Source: a bacterium (GTDB lineage: Bacteria > SZUA-182 > DTGQ01). Taken from it: a stretch of 16,957 nucleotides of DNA. Under the pieces are notes generated by a model. It was not told the origin of the DNA. It saw only the letters and a list, made by a program, of their open reading frames with translations, and did no database searches. Both the position numbers and the translations under genes were made by a program. Shown one piece after another: positions 658-14,318 of this stretch. The stretch spans positions 1 to 16,957 of the forward strand of contig JBFLZW010000007.1 in NCBI GenBank assembly GCA_040755755.1. Reading direction: 5' to 3'. The stretch's first letter is position 1. Each line of letters starts with the position of its first letter.

Positions 658-755
658 GGGAATGGATGGGGCACTGGTGGCTTCCCTGGACTTCAAATCC
701 AGTGGCAGGCCCTGACAAGGTCTGCGGTGGGTTCGATTCCCACACATTCCCGCCA
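658..755 (+). tRNA. selC: tRNA-Sec (anticodon TCA), selenocysteine tRNA
   Basis: The acceptor arms GGGAATG (658-664) and CATTCCC (745-751) pair, followed by G752 and an encoded CCA (753-755). The anticodon stem is CTGGA/TCCAG (686-690/698-702) around the loop CTTCAAA, placing TCA at 693-695. The extra arm is very long, with a 7-bp stem GCAGGCC/GGTCTGC (705-711/719-725). The T arm is GTGGG-TTCGATT-CCCAC. A long acceptor stem, a long variable arm and a UCA anticodon are diagnostic of SelC, the tRNA on which selenocysteine is made and delivered to UGA codons by SelB. No selA, selB or selD gene and no clear selenoprotein lies in this window. The eighth acceptor position is a G-A mismatch. Confidence 0.96.
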
Positions 756-8059: not shown

Positions 8060-8207
8060 TGCCGATCCCTTCCTTTCTATCCCTACGGTGTACCGTCAGC
8101 ATCTTCCCCTTATACTCCTTCGGTCTGTTCGGGAAAAATTCCTTCGCATCAGGAGTCAAAATGCCGGATTCAGTATAAAGACTCATTCTCCCGGTCTGCA
8201 AGCTCAT
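8037..8207 (-). CDS. Possible small protein between the regulator and the radical SAM gene
   Basis: A 56-codon minus-strand frame starts at ATG 8207 (AGGA just upstream), inside the 3' end of the NtrC-like regulator, and ends with TGA at 8037, 23 bp inside the radical SAM gene. The middle reads ESGILTPDAKEFFPNRPKEY, a plausible soluble sequence with ordinary codon usage, followed by a basic tail. An internal start at 8186 is also possible. It exactly fills the 110-bp gap between two same-strand genes, which suits a coupled small gene, but it is short and unrecognised. Chance openness cannot be excluded. Confidence 0.25.
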   Translation of the reverse strand: MSLQTGRMSLYTESGILTPDAKEFFPNRPKEYKGKMLTVHRRDRKEGIGNGRGQIL

Positions 8208-9615
8208 GATTCCTGATCCGGTTGCCATTACCAGCGACTTCGATATTGTATTTTCTGAGCTTCCGGAAGATAGTCGTAAGGTCTAATCCTGATATCCTGG
8301 CCATCATTTTTTTGTCGCCGTTACAGGCCTTCAGGAGGTCTTCCAGGTAGCTCTTTTCAAAGGTTTCTTTGGCTTTTTTGTAGGTTTGGGTAAAAATGTC
8401 AGTGTTATCAATTTCATAGTGACGCGTGGCGCGAATTTCATCAGGGAGACAGGATACATCAATCGTATCTCCCTCACAAAGGGCGACCCCCCGCCGGATT
8501 ATATTTTCGAGCTGGCGGACATTTCCAGGCCAGTGGAAATCCATCATCAGTTTCATGGCTTCAGTGGAGATGCCGATAACTTTTTTCTTCTCTTTCTCGA
8601 CAAACTTTTTCAAAAAGGAGTGCGCCAAAACAGGGATATCCTCTTTCCTCTCCCTGAGGGGAGGTAATTTGATGGTGACTGCATTGATCCGGTAGTGAAG
8701 ATCTTCCCGGAACTTTCCATCCTCCACAGCCCTGGAAAGGTCCTTATTGGTAGCGCAGATAATCCGCACATCACAATACAGCGTCTCATGCCCGCCCACT
8801 CTTTGAAACTCGCCTTCCTGGAGAACCCTGAGCAATTTTACCTGAAAGCTCGGGGATGCCTCCGCGATTTCATCCAGCAGGAGAGTCCCGCCGTCCGCCT
8901 CCTCAAAGAGTCCCTTACATCCTTGCGGCGGAGCACTGGTAAACGGTGCATTAGGTACGCAGCCAAACAGGATGGTTTCCAGGATTTCCTGCGGGAACGC
9001 ACCACAATTGACGCGGAGGAATTTCTTGCCAGCGCGGCGGCTATTTTTGTAAATCTCCCTGGCAGCCAGTTCCTTACCAGTTCCGTTTTCTCCTGTCAGC
9101 AGGATACTGATATCACTCGGAGCGACCCTCCTGATAAGGTCAAGGGCTTCCTGAATCTTGGCAGAGGTGCCGATCATGGCACTGTTTTCAAGCTGGAGGG
9201 CCAGTTGCCCCTGGAGAATAGCATTTTCTCTTACGATTTTTTGATGTTCCAGGACCTTCTCGATGCGCAGGAGGATTTCCGCAGGTCGAGGGAAAGGCTT
9301 GGAGATAAAATCTTCAGCCCCCGTCTTTACTGCCTGGACCGCAATATCCGCAGTCCCGTGTCCGCTGATCATGACTACCACTACATCCGGCTGCATTATT
9401 TTCAGCCGCCGCAGGACCTGCATCCCATCCATGCTGCCAGGCAGTTGCAGGTCAAGGAGTACCAGATCGAATATCTCCTGAGTAAAGAGCCTTAAACCCT
9501 CATCTCCATCTTCAGCGGTTATTACTGTATAGCCTTCATCACCTAAAAGACTTTTAAAATACCCCCGGGGGATTTCCTCATCATCGATAACCAGTACTCT
9601 CTTCTTCTTCTTCAT
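8170..9615 (-). CDS. NtrC-like response regulator (receiver, AAA+, Fis HTH) with altered GAFTGA motif
   Basis: This 481-residue regulator has an N-terminal receiver (DDEE at 11-14, phosphoacceptor Asp55 in LVLLDLQLPG, Ser84 of MISGHG, Lys106 of SKPF) and a linker helix. The AAA+ domain has Walker A GENGTGKE (175-182), Walker B LLLDE (245-249), sensor region ICATNKDL and Arg-finger region REDLHYRIN. A Fis-type helix-turn-helix sits at about 415-460. The sigma54-contact loop, normally GAFTGA, reads APFTSA (223-228), with CVPN before it in place of the usual HEKG-like residues. ATPase residues look intact, so it may hydrolyse ATP yet contact sigma54 abnormally, or work through sigma70 as GAFTGA-less relatives do. 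AGGAAAGG precedes the start. It is last in a minus-strand run led by the histidine kinase gene. Confidence 0.93.
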   Translation of the reverse strand: MKKKKRVLVIDDEEIPRGYFKSLLGDEGYTVITAEDGDEGLRLFTQEIFDLVLLDLQLPGSMDGMQVLRRLKIMQPDVVVVMISGHGTADIAVQAVKTGAEDFISKPFPRPAEILLRIEKVLEHQKIVRENAILQGQLALQLENSAMIGTSAKIQEALDLIRRVAPSDISILLTGENGTGKELAAREIYKNSRRAGKKFLRVNCGAFPQEILETILFGCVPNAPFTSAPPQGCKGLFEEADGGTLLLDEIAEASPSFQVKLLRVLQEGEFQRVGGHETLYCDVRIICATNKDLSRAVEDGKFREDLHYRINAVTIKLPPLRERKEDIPVLAHSFLKKFVEKEKKKVIGISTEAMKLMMDFHWPGNVRQLENIIRRGVALCEGDTIDVSCLPDEIRATRHYEIDNTDIFTQTYKKAKETFEKSYLEDLLKACNGDKKMMARISGLDLTTIFRKLRKYNIEVAGNGNRIRNHELADRENESLY

Positions 9616-9749: not shown

Positions 9750-10436
9750 TTAGAGTGGCGATTTTTCAATCTGAAACTTTTTCAGCTTTCGGATGAGAGT
9801 CGCACGGCCTAATCCTGATGTCCTGGCCGTGGTGGTAGTAATATTGCCGCCGCATGCCCGCAGGAGGTTTTTCAGATAAAACTTTTCAAACATTTCTTTG
9901 GCAGCCCGATAATTTAATGGGCAAATCTCACTGTTATCGGCTTGTGCTGCCTCTTTGAAAATCTTAAAGACCTCCTGCATTCTGACAGATGTATCGATCA
10001 TTCCAGGGGCCTGGAGCTCTTCTAGCTGTGCGCGCACGGAGTCAAGCTCCCTGCGGATGTCCCGATGTTCCAGGGCCTTCTCGATGCGCAGAAGGATCTC
10101 CTCAGGGCTGTCAAAGGGTTTGGAGATGAAATCTTCAGCCCCCCTCTTTACTGCCTCGACCGCAACGTCCGAGGCCCCGTGCCCGCTGATCATGATTATC
10201 ACCGTCTCCGGCTGCATGGTTTTCAGCCGCCGCAGGACCTGCATCCCATCCATACTGCCGGGTATTTTCAAGTCAAGGAGCACCAGACCGAATATTTCCT
10301 GAGTAAAGAGCCGAATACCCTCATCTCCATCACCAGCAATGGTTACTCCATATCCCTCATCACCGAGAAGATTTTTAAAGAATCCCTGAGTGAATCCATC
10401 ATCATCAATAAGCAGTATCTTATCCTTTCTTTTCAT
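9750..10436 (-). CDS. Response regulator lacking the AAA+ domain (receiver plus Fis-type HTH)
   Basis: This 228-residue paralogue of the neighbouring NtrC-like regulator keeps the receiver intact (DDD at 11-13, phosphoacceptor Asp55 in LVLLDLKIPG, MISGHG, SKPF) and the linker to MIDTSVRMQEVFKIF. It then jumps at about residue 168 (DNS) to the C-terminal Fis-like domain (AAKEMFEKFYLKNLLRACGG...GRATLIRKLKKF). In the full paralogue the matching points are residues about 170 and 404, so about 235 residues, the whole AAA+ core, are missing in frame. It cannot act as a sigma54 activator ATPase. It may act as a phosphorylation-controlled DNA-binding protein that competes for the same sites, or may be a decaying duplicate. 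The start at 10436 is preferred because the receiver begins there and GAGGTG lies 10 bp upstream; upstream ATGs add non-homologous residues. Confidence 0.85.
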   Translation of the reverse strand: MKRKDKILLIDDDGFTQGFFKNLLGDEGYGVTIAGDGDEGIRLFTQEIFGLVLLDLKIPGSMDGMQVLRRLKTMQPETVIIMISGHGASDVAVEAVKRGAEDFISKPFDSPEEILLRIEKALEHRDIRRELDSVRAQLEELQAPGMIDTSVRMQEVFKIFKEAAQADNSEICPLNYRAAKEMFEKFYLKNLLRACGGNITTTTARTSGLGRATLIRKLKKFQIEKSPL

Positions 10437-10443
10437 TCCTGCT

Positions 10444-10527
10444 TCACACCTCATCCAAAAGCCTTGGAGAAAACCCCCGGGTATATTCCTCGTCATCAAT
10501 GACCAGTACTCTTTTGTTTTTTTTCAT
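10444..10527 (-). pseudogene. 27-codon stub of a third response-regulator gene
   Basis: On the minus strand an ATG at 10527 with a strong AGGAGAGGTG site upstream begins a frame containing KRVLVIDDEE, nearly identical to the start of the full NtrC-like regulator (also KRVLVIDDEE). It continues through RG and LL positions shared with that protein, then stops at TGA 10444-10446, only 7 bp before the ATG of the AAA-less regulator. It is a truncated receiver start fused by deletion to the leader of the next copy. It would still be translated and might act as a leader for the downstream gene, but it cannot fold as a receiver. Confidence 0.7.
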
Positions 10528-10588: not shown

Positions 10589-12172
10589 TTAAAAACCATC
10601 CTTCGGATGGGCGATCGGAAAGTGAACCATGAATGTTGCTCCCTTTCCTTCCTCGCTCTCCACTTCAATTGTCCCATTATGGGCTTTTATAATACCGTAA
10701 GCGATGCTTAGGCCGAGCCCGGTTCCAGAATCCTTATCTTTCGTGGTGAAAAAAGGATCGAATATTTTGTCTATAATAGATTTTGGTATACCGGAGCCGG
10801 AATCAGTAAATTTGATAATCACGTAATCCTGGTCGGCTGCCTGATCGCGGACGATTTCGGAAGATATCCTGATCGTTCCTCCCGTCGGCATGGCATGGAA
10901 GGCATTCATCAGAAGATTTAAAAATACCTGCTGAATCTGGGTTACATTTCCTTCTATGGGAGGCAGTGTCCGGCCAGTATCCCGAATGATTTTTATGTTC
11001 CCAACCTTGAGGGTATTTTCGATCAGGACAATAGTGCTGTCGATAACAGCCTGCAAGTCCAGCAGTTCAAAGTTGAAATGATGAGGCCGCGAAAAATTCA
11101 AAAGGTTCTTGACAATATCCTTGCACTGGAGGGCCCCTCTTTCGACTATATCGAGCATTTCCCGGTTCGGATCATTCGGCCCGATTTTTCTTTGCAGCAA
11201 TTGAACATAGTTCAGAACACCCACCAGGGGATTATTCAACTGATGGGCCAGGCCGCTCGCCAACTCTCCGATGGCCGCCAGTTTGCCTGCCTGGATTAAT
11301 TTGAGCTGCATGCCGACCTGCTGGGTAATGTCCTGCACCAGACACAATACCTGGATAATGTTGCCGTTGATATCCATAAGCGGTGTAGTAGTCAGTTGAT
11401 AGTGCTTGCGTTCTCCTTCACTATTGACCAGGCTGTGTCTTACCCTGTGAACTATGCCGCTTTCAAAGGTAGCCCGCATCATGCATTTTTCACAATTCCG
11501 GGAGCCCCGTTTAAATAATATATAACACGGCATCCCTTCGAGGGTACGGTCTGATCTGAACCACTCCTCCATAGTCCGGTTCGACCAGATTACTTTGTAG
11601 TTACTATCAATAATTATTAACCCTGCTCCAATTGCGCTGATGATATTCTCCAGCTTTCTTTTTTCCTGCTGCAACCGCACGTTGACGTAAGCGGTCCGCT
11701 GTCGGAGCTCCTCCTGCTGAATCTTCAGGTCATGCCGCTCCAGCGTCCTCTGAATCACCATATAGAGCCTGGTCAAGTAATCCCCCCCCTTATTCACATA
11801 ATCATAAGCCCCCATTTTCATGGCCTGGACAGCGACCTGCTCGTTGCCATGTCCGGTGATCATAATGGTAGGGATGTTGAGGTTTCTTTTTCTCATGGAC
11901 CAGAGAAACTCAAGTCCATTCATTTGGGGAAGGGAGTAATTGAGCAGAATCACATCGTATTTATCCTTTCCCAATAACTCAAGGCCTTTCTCTCCACTGT
12001 CTGCGGCGGTGATATCCATGTCCAGGGGACCGCTCAGTAAGGCATCCTTAATAAGCTGCTGGTGCTGGGGACTGTCCTCGACCAGCAATAATCGAATCCT
12101 TGAGGAGCGCTCTGTTCCTTCTGCGGATAGATCCTCTTTTACCACAAAATCCTTATTACCCGTATTGTCCAT
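10589..12172 (-). CDS. Sensor histidine kinase with N-terminal (pseudo)receiver and PAS domain
   Basis: This 527-residue, apparently cytoplasmic protein has no membrane segment. Residues 26-145 form a receiver: acidic pair E32/D33, T106 (MITGHG) and K128 (YVNKGGD). At the phosphoacceptor position (VILLNYSLPQMNG) the Asp is Asn78. A coiled linker leads to a PAS domain (about 172-285) containing CYILF...CEKC (C216, C227, C230), a Cys pattern seen in PAS domains of anaerobes that may bind metal or sense redox. The kinase core follows: H-box GLAHQLNNPL (phosphoacceptor His310, with Gln311 where Glu/Asp is usual), N-box NLLMNAFHAM, G1 DSGSGIP, F-box FDPFFTTK and G2 GTGLGLSIAYGI. It heads the minus-strand run containing the two regulators below it and presumably phosphorylates their Asp55 residues. 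The start lacks a strong SD. Confidence 0.94.
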   Translation of the reverse strand: MDNTGNKDFVVKEDLSAEGTERSSRIRLLLVEDSPQHQQLIKDALLSGPLDMDITAADSGEKGLELLGKDKYDVILLNYSLPQMNGLEFLWSMRKRNLNIPTIMITGHGNEQVAVQAMKMGAYDYVNKGGDYLTRLYMVIQRTLERHDLKIQQEELRQRTAYVNVRLQQEKRKLENIISAIGAGLIIIDSNYKVIWSNRTMEEWFRSDRTLEGMPCYILFKRGSRNCEKCMMRATFESGIVHRVRHSLVNSEGERKHYQLTTTPLMDINGNIIQVLCLVQDITQQVGMQLKLIQAGKLAAIGELASGLAHQLNNPLVGVLNYVQLLQRKIGPNDPNREMLDIVERGALQCKDIVKNLLNFSRPHHFNFELLDLQAVIDSTIVLIENTLKVGNIKIIRDTGRTLPPIEGNVTQIQQVFLNLLMNAFHAMPTGGTIRISSEIVRDQAADQDYVIIKFTDSGSGIPKSIIDKIFDPFFTTKDKDSGTGLGLSIAYGIIKAHNGTIEVESEEGKGATFMVHFPIAHPKDGF

Positions 12173-12244: not shown

Positions 12245-12273
12245 AATATAACAAAACATGCCCGATTTGTAAA
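12245..12273 (-). promoter_or_regulatory. Sigma70-type promoter for the histidine kinase operon
   Basis: On the minus strand TTTACA (12273-12268) and TATATT (12250-12245) are separated by 17 bp, giving a leader of about 65 nt to the kinase ATG at 12172. It is back-to-back with the plus-strand promoter at 12316-12344, and the -35 boxes are about 42 bp apart, so one regulator could control both. Confidence 0.55.
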
Positions 12274-12405: not shown

Positions 12406-12996
12406 ATGAATAAAAGATCGCCTTTACTCCTGGTGACCGGTATTCTGTTTCTCTGGTCCGCTACTCTTCTTTCAGGGAATACCTGTGCACAACTCTACCC
12501 CTATCCGGGGGCAACAAACCCGCTCCTTTCTACAGCTTATCTGTCACTCTATCTCAGTCCTTACTATTACAACACGATGGTACCCATGTCCTCTTTCGGA
12601 CAGTTTGATCCATCCATCAACCTGAACGATGTTACTCTTTCCCTTGATATCCTTTACAGTCCGTCTCAGTACCGAACCTTTGACCCAAGCTCCCTGAAGG
12701 GACTTTATCAGTTTTCCCCATCTCCATTCAACTACGTCTGGAATTCTCTGGTGGATAGTCAGGACAGCACGCAAACTGTTAACCCCTACTTTGCCACCCC
12801 CTTCTATTATCCCCTGCTGAATAAAGACTACTTCGCCACCAACCCGGCCGAACGCAGCATTCCTCTTTCTCTGTATACTCTCTATTCGTTCGCCCCTCAT
12901 CTGCCGGAGCTGTTTTATTCCGCCACCCAGGCAGGACTGGCCCCAGCCCAAAATTTTATGAATGCCCTGGGGTTGTCACTGCTGCCGATTGTATAA
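12406..12996 (+). CDS. Exported Tyr/Pro/Ser-rich protein of unknown function
   Basis: This 196-residue protein has a clear signal peptide: MNKR, then a hydrophobic core (LLLVTGILFLWSATLL), then a likely type I cleavage site after TCA (residues 26-28). There is no lipobox, because GNT rather than an LAG-like triplet precedes Cys27. The mature part has no further membrane helix and is unusually rich in Tyr, Pro, Ser and Leu, with short aromatic runs such as YLSLYLSPYYYN and PYFATPFYYP. Apart from Cys27 in the signal region no Cys is seen. I recognise no domain. It has its own strong promoter and is divergent from the histidine kinase gene, so it may be a target of, or the sensed envelope partner for, that system. 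That link is inferred from position only. Confidence 0.75.
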   Translation: MNKRSPLLLVTGILFLWSATLLSGNTCAQLYPYPGATNPLLSTAYLSLYLSPYYYNTMVPMSSFGQFDPSINLNDVTLSLDILYSPSQYRTFDPSSLKGLYQFSPSPFNYVWNSLVDSQDSTQTVNPYFATPFYYPLLNKDYFATNPAERSIPLSLYTLYSFAPHLPELFYSATQAGLAPAQNFMNALGLSLLPIV

Positions 12997-13388
12997 ATAT
13001 TATACTCTATTGCTGAAAGTATTTCAAAAAAGCCGATGCTCATCTCATAATTAGCCGAAAAGAAAAGATAAGGTGTCCTCTTGAATCTTGAATTGCGGAT
13101 AAAATGTTCGACATGCATAATAATATTTTGCTCCATTCAATATCGATTTTAAAATCCAGATAAAACATTAATTCAATTAGATATCTGCTTTTTTTCTAAA
13201 CCCTTACCTGAAAATAGAATACTCTGAATCGATCCTAAGCTTTTAAATCAAATTGTATTTATAATATATTAAAAGAGGGTATTGCAAAAAAGTAATAATA
13301 TGGTATAATCTATCTTGATCTTATAAAGGGTTTTATTAATTCAATAGAACCAAATGATTAAATTAATCTCTGCGAGAAGGAGAAAAAA
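12997..13388 (+). other. AT-rich 392-bp intergenic region upstream of the XRE-cupin regulator
   Basis: No gene is visible on either strand. The region is markedly more AT-rich than its surroundings. It contains the promoter at 13282-13309, a small palindrome ATTTTAAAAT near 13147, and two copies of ATTAATTCAAT (13167-13177 and 13335-13345), one upstream of the promoter and one in the leader. Both copies are followed by a near-identical AGA/TAGA tail. They could be operator half-sites for the neighbouring regulator, but chance is plausible in such AT-rich DNA. Confidence 0.5.
13282..13309 (+). promoter_or_regulatory. Extended -10 promoter of the receiver-XRE-cupin gene
   Basis: TTGCAA (13282-13287), a 16-bp spacer, then TATAAT (13304-13309) with the extended -10 element TGG just before it. 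The leader to the ATG at 13389 is about 73 nt. Confidence 0.65.
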
Positions 13389-14318
13389 ATGGTATTTGAT
13401 AAAGCTAACATTCTGGTGGTCGATGATGACCAGGACCTGAGTGAATTTATTGTCGAGCTTCTGGTAAAGGATGGTTACAAGGTTTCCTCGGTAACCAACA
13501 TTAATGATTCCCTCTATAAACTGAAAAACGATATCTTCGACATCGTTCTCCTGGATCTGAAGTTGCCTGATATCAATGGCAGCCAGGGAATCACCGAGAT
13601 TAAAAAGGTATCCCCTCACTCGAAGGTGATAATCCTGACCGGATATCCGTCGGTAGACTCCGCTGTATCGACCATGAAAAACGGAGCTATCGATTATCTG
13701 AAAAAGCCTTTCAAGAACGAAGAATTACTTGATATCATCAGAGGCAACATCAACCTTGAGGTTAAGAATAATATCCTCAGCAAGCTGGGAGAAAAGATCA
13801 AGAGTATCCGAAAGAGCAAGGGGATCAAGATCAAACAATTGAGTACCAGATCGGGATTGACCGAAAGCTCTATCTCCATGATCGAAAACGGAAAAATATC
13901 TCCCTCGATCACGACCATTAACAAGATTGCCATGGCCCTGAGTGTCCATCCGATTGAGTTTTTCGAGATCGAAAAGCACAAAAAATGGATCCTCACCCGC
14001 AAAGGAGAACGAGAGAAGCTTCTGTTCGATAACTCGGATAATAAGCTGGAATTTCTGATCAAGGACAAAAAAGACTATAAGAATGAGATTTTTATCTCAT
14101 ATCTGGCAGCGAACCAGAAATCCTTCGAGGAATATATCACCCATGAAGGATTTAAATTCGGTTATGTCCTTTCGGGAGCGGTCGAAGTGGAACTGGGTAA
14201 TGAGAAAGTAAGAGTCAGTGAGGGAGACACTATTTTCTTCGAGGCCATTATCCCCCACCTGTGGAAAAGCGCCGACAACCGGGAATCCAGCACGCTGTGG
14301 GTAGTCACCCGTGAATAG
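13389..14318 (+). CDS. Response regulator with XRE-type HTH and C-terminal cupin domain
   Basis: This 309-residue protein has three parts. Residues 5-125 are a canonical receiver with D12-D14, phosphoacceptor Asp56 (IVLLDLKLP), Thr84 (ILTGYP) and Lys105 (LKKPF). Residues 132-192 are a Cro/CI (XRE) helix-turn-helix: LGEKIKSIRKSKGIKIKQL, SGLTESSISMIENG, then SPSITTINKIAMALSV. Residues 215-307 are a cupin_2 barrel: HEGFKFGYVLSGAVEVELG, VSEGDTIFFEAIIPHLW. XRE-cupin pairs are known as small-molecule-responsive repressors, and receivers normally carry OmpR, LuxR or NtrC outputs, so this joins a phosphorylation input to a ligand-sensing repressor. In the cupin, the first histidine (H252) and last (H290) are kept, but the usual Glu of motif 1 seems replaced (KFGY), so metal binding is uncertain. 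AAGGAG lies 6 bp before the ATG. No kinase gene follows on this strand, so it is an orphan here. Confidence 0.93.
   Translation: MVFDKANILVVDDDQDLSEFIVELLVKDGYKVSSVTNINDSLYKLKNDIFDIVLLDLKLPDINGSQGITEIKKVSPHSKVIILTGYPSVDSAVSTMKNGAIDYLKKPFKNEELLDIIRGNINLEVKNNILSKLGEKIKSIRKSKGIKIKQLSTRSGLTESSISMIENGKISPSITTINKIAMALSVHPIEFFEIEKHKKWILTRKGEREKLLFDNSDNKLEFLIKDKKDYKNEIFISYLAANQKSFEEYITHEGFKFGYVLSGAVEVELGNEKVRVSEGDTIFFEAIIPHLWKSADNRESSTLWVVTRE

Follow-up and report, generated by a model that had tools for sequence, protein, structure and literature searches.

A receiver, a Cro/CI-type HTH and a cupin in one chain

The window, a stretch of 16,957 nucleotides that makes up an entire contig of a 5.26-Mb genome, carries on its forward strand a gene for a 309-amino-acid regulator with an ATG start (13389–14318), delineated by its open reading frame and by seven full-length homologs of 70–97% identity. 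Comparison with Pfam revealed three domains, each exceeding its curated cut-off: a receiver at residues 8–118 (13410–13742, + strand; PF00072 Response_reg, E=5.1e-26), a Cro/CI-type HTH at residues 137–191 (13797–13961, + strand; PF01381 HTH_3, E=3.5e-14) and a cupin at residues 240–306 (14106–14306, + strand; PF07883 Cupin_2, E=6.5e-12). This triple match, together with the fused state of all homologs, bears out the initial annotation of the locus, made from the sequence alone, which had read the gene as a fusion of these modules. Structure prediction performed well for the receiver and HTH and poorly for the cupin (pLDDT mostly <40, and 37.6 when the cupin was modelled alone from two sequences); a helix is predicted across residues 110–143, leading from the receiver into the HTH, with residues 122–127 at pLDDT <50.

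Aligning the eight copies revealed that the residues that define a response-regulator receiver are all present and invariant: an acid pair (D12/D13), the phospho-acceptor D56, T84 and K106. The annotation had called the receiver complete on the strength of Asp56, Thr84 and Lys105; completeness and the first two residues stand, but the conserved lysine is K106, of a KPF motif, whereas residue 105 is arginine in one homolog. Downstream of the receiver, HTH_3 is followed by Cupin_2 in a single chain, as in the 45 XRE-cupins with which the protein was aligned, and the additional domain at residues 8–118 separates it from ErfA-like regulators, which have two domains only.

Full-length homologs (E<1e-40 in a search covering nine genomes of the phylum) were found in all four genomes of a family-level clade, eight copies at one to three per genome, and not in the five other genomes. 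Their identities to the window protein are 97% for the one copy in G002, 84, 75 and 70% for the three in G001, and 86, 83 and 79% for the three in G003; G000 holds the window copy only. The chain is uninterrupted in all eight, ruling out a split frame or an assembly artefact and, with them, the suggestion that close relatives might carry two separate genes. In a tree of HTH domains the Rec-XRE-cupin family is monophyletic (support 100/99) with poorly resolved neighbours, so the tree does not tell a receiver added to an XRE-cupin apart from a cupin added to a Rec-XRE protein. A decayed partial receiver copy with four stops lies beside an intact paralog (G009:C21:2552-2842). The fusion is thus real, conserved and duplicated inside one small bacterial lineage.

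A candidate kinase and a conserved gene cassette

A histidine kinase with the Pfam architecture Rec-PAS-HisKA-HATPase is encoded 1.2 kb away on the reverse strand (10589–12172). The earlier statement that no cognate kinase is adjacent was therefore wrong as to position, and the neighbourhood comparison proposed with it, which asked whether a kinase recurs, returned this gene next door in all four orthologous loci (63–80% identity). Gene order in these loci (the window, L017, L018 and L022) runs from the divergent kinase through a secreted Tyr/Pro-rich protein, the regulator and a Trm112-like gene to an epimerase, none being called in L022, and a heptosyltransferase. At L018 the RtcB-archease-radical SAM flank is inverted relative to this cassette, indicating that the cassette has been kept across a rearrangement. 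A selenocysteine tRNA lies elsewhere in the window (658–751, + strand; Rfam RF01852, 69.3 bits).

The kinase also adjoins a gene for an NtrC-type response regulator (8170–9615, − strand; Rec-AAA-HTH_8 by Pfam), whose orthologs in G002 and G001 likewise neighbour the kinase. Closer to the kinase and co-oriented with it, the NtrC-type regulator is its more obvious partner, so that the kinase is no more than a candidate partner of the Rec-XRE-cupin protein. Receiver helix alpha-1 differs between the Rec-XRE-cupin protein, the NtrC-type regulator and the kinase. Between the latter two genes, at 9750–10499 (− strand), lies a Rec-HTH_8 gene that lacks AAA+ and looks like a truncated tandem duplicate of the NtrC-type gene; no counterpart was seen in L017, the sister locus.

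Beside the four dispersed paralogs (L019, L020, L021 and L023) no kinase was found within the flanks examined, and their neighbours are mostly unrelated: a papain-like protease with a PKD domain, glycosyltransferases, MTHFR with a YtfJ-like gene, and a secreted protein. This lack of a dedicated kinase would suit a receiver that serves mainly as a structural or dimerisation module, with phosphorylation unused, but we consider such a role highly unlikely: none of the chemistry residues varies among the eight copies, whereas the receiver of the neighbouring kinase itself has degenerated to a pseudo-receiver with asparagine at the phospho-Asp position (LLNYSLP) in all four orthologs. The same comparison undercuts a proposed link to surface polysaccharides, since the epimerase and heptosyltransferase lie on the opposite strand and only L020, among paralogs with mostly unrelated neighbours, is near glycosyltransferases.

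Directly upstream of the regulator, and co-oriented with it in all four orthologous loci, is the gene for the Tyr/Pro-rich protein (12406–12996, + strand; 196 amino acids, 58–77% identity), which has a signal-like N-terminus, no Pfam match and its own conserved promoter. It is possibly a target or partner of the regulator. Near one paralog, a 196-amino-acid open reading frame (L023, 990–1580) resembles this protein in composition and is not BLAST-similar to it. A perfect dyad, ACAAA-N10-TTTGT, occupies 12251–12270 between the kinase and secreted-protein genes, in a conserved stretch, and recurs exactly in L017 and L018.

A conserved promoter and an altered cupin pocket

The regulator gene was described as sitting behind an AT-rich 392-bp upstream region with an extended -10 promoter, and the sequence agrees: a core promoter block, AGGGTATTGCAAAAAAGTAATAATATGGTATAATCT (13276–13311, + strand), contains a -35 element TTGCAA (13282–13287) and an extended -10 element TGgTATAAT (13304–13309) at a spacing of 16 nt. 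The block is present at seven of the eight copies, where identity between copies is 70–100% over 40 nt as against 28–55% at fourfold-degenerate sites of the same genes. Its retention while synonymous sites are near-random suggests that the copies are under shared, probably autoregulatory, control. Across the seven block-bearing copies the recognition-helix region is almost constant; the helix has changed most (TDSTISMVEN) in the one copy without the block (L013/L020), a single case.

A palindromic operator within the block, TATTG-N11-CAATA, was rejected, as 332 of 500 column shuffles reached the same dyad; with no dyad above shuffled columns, the block may owe its conservation to promoter function alone. 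Scanning the compared loci for the block revealed neither a second copy near other genes nor an operator common to the regulator and secreted-protein promoters, and a pattern search of the regulator's own genome returned its own exact site only, plus two sites with three mismatches as compared to one in the control; no regulon is thus visible. The leader has no Rfam match.

Phosphorylation switches on many receiver-HTH regulators. The Rec-XRE-cupin protein might likewise be an activator or dual regulator whose DNA binding is switched on by phosphorylation, the block then being its own promoter free of self-repression, and the insignificant dyad and the separate conserved promoter of the secreted-protein gene 392 bp upstream fit this. 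Nonetheless, an activating or dual role seems unlikely given that the block spacer is conserved at 0.81–1.00 as compared to 0.59–0.82 for the secreted-protein promoter in the same genomes, and that characterised XRE-cupins are inhibitors (PMC7901475).

The cupin departs from its relatives in a consistent manner. In the motif-1 stretch THEGFKFGYVL, K256 stands in place of the usual Glu; this position is Lys or Arg in all eight copies and Glu or Asp in 44 of 45 related XRE-cupins, while the preceding position 255 is Phe, Tyr or His in all eight and Glu or Asp in 43 of the 45. As measured against the metal-binding pattern (HxH and Glu in motif 1, His in motif 2), the protein has two of four ligands (I250, H252, K256, H290); the first His of motif 1 is missing in Rec-XRE-cupins, as in most of the 45 relatives, and H252 and H290 are kept in every copy. 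The suspicion that this cupin is atypical for want of the motif-1 Glu therefore extends to the whole family, and such a coordinated, conserved change in sequence disfavours a classical metal site and points away from one family-wide.

Could the cupin instead be a dimerisation or structural module that binds no ligand, leaving phosphorylation as the sole signal? Neither acidic residue of the pocket survives, and of the three domains it is the cupin that varies most between copies (63–76% identity, as compared to 74–93% for the receiver and HTH, in ranges that exclude the near-identical sister copy and L020). Against this, all eight copies retain H252 and H290 and have a basic residue at 256, suggesting a different, conserved pocket, and we regard a ligand-free cupin as improbable.

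Distribution, a proposed mechanism and known relatives

Beyond the phylum, searches covered partial samples of four other phyla, ~1,370 genomes in all. Strict full-length profile searches, with 5–7 candidates scored per genome, covered the phyla of G016 (395 genomes), G015 (295) and G991 (398); no Rec-XRE-cupin turned up, and the single match in the G016 sample was a stand-alone XRE-cupin. Queried on its own, the XRE-cupin half had no match at 1e-22 among 282 genomes from the phylum of the Myxococcales MAG G011. For the phylum of G014, sampled by 297 genomes in a set that overlaps that of G016, 172 genomes gave a match; among the best 30 loci and 15 with long frames in this search, none carried a receiver. 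In a contig scan with two N-terminal peptide patterns, the sole full-length protein among the matches listed was the clade's own copy, followed by Myxococcota Rec-XRE proteins of ~196 amino acids. Among the best places listed in PLSDB plasmids there was no Rec-XRE-cupin, the two covering >80% having 25–26% identity and one being annotated as an ordinary response regulator. No relatives were found in viral contigs, where the XRE-cupin query gave one weak match to the HTH only, and the open literature searched held no receiver-XRE-cupin protein. Within these searches the three-part order is as unusual as first supposed. They are a bounded result and do not prove absence elsewhere; the Rec-XRE-cupin is a true, conserved domain combination that is apparently rare.

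At a probability of roughly 60%, we read the protein as a response regulator with an XRE-cupin output half, gated by phosphorylation and probably by a ligand, and acting first on its own promoter. A histidine kinase would phosphorylate Asp56, and the resulting change in the receiver would pass along the receiver-HTH helix to alter how the Cro/CI-type HTH dimerises or binds DNA, with DNA most likely bound as a dimer. The C-terminal cupin would supply a second input: since an aromatic residue or His, followed by Lys or Arg, has replaced its acidic pocket pair, the ligand is most likely anionic or in some other way not a metal. The regulator would act first on the core promoter of its own gene, which it would occlude in the manner described for XRE-cupin repressors, and on a few further targets. 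We infer phosphorylation, ligand binding, dimerisation, repression and autoregulation by analogy with the parent families. In a speculative extension that we think quite unlikely, a single kinase input and a single DNA site would be common to the paralogs, whose diverging cupins would join one phospho-signal to different ligands. If phosphorylation and ligand do gate the same XRE dimer, the protein would be a compact switch with two inputs, linking two-component signalling to a family of metabolite-sensing repressors whose members otherwise work as one-component systems. The eight natural copies, with near-fixed receiver and HTH, diverging cupin and conserved promoter, make this idea directly testable in vitro.

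Three known or recurrent architectures bear comparison. KaiC-like ATPase-XRE-cupin fusions recur in Desulfobacterota-type genomes (L163–L169, ~437–488 amino acids) and likewise add an N-terminal domain to an XRE-cupin; this domain, common to seven long-frame proteins, is not a receiver but weakly KaiC-like, by a match from the one tested (PF06745, E=4e-4, under the cut-off), and no paper on these fusions was found in the literature searched. Rec-XRE response regulators of Myxococcota (L025–L031, L038) have a receiver and then HTH_3 in the same order, with 31–37% identity to the window protein across residues 5–192, but lack the cupin, and in the poorly resolved tree their HTH is not sister to that of the Rec-XRE-cupin family.

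Closest in output are the XRE-cupin repressors of the ErfA, PsdR, PauR and PuuR type, which share the order HTH_3 then Cupin_2. The alignment of residues 131–307 with stand-alone XRE-cupins runs from end to end, the best having E=1.3e-38, and the NCBIfam PuuR model aligns, but at 58.8 bits against a cut-off of 211. XRE-cupins of Pseudomonas are local repressors that bind core promoters (PMC7901475; see also PMC10965056), and regulators of the XRE family often act as dimers that control their own genes (PMC12565409). By contrast with these repressors, the window protein has an N-terminal receiver, and every Rec-XRE-cupin copy replaces the motif-1 acidic pair with an aromatic residue or His plus Lys or Arg. 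Rec-XRE and XRE-cupin proteins are each known separately; what is new, within the searches made, is the three-part receiver-XRE-cupin chain.
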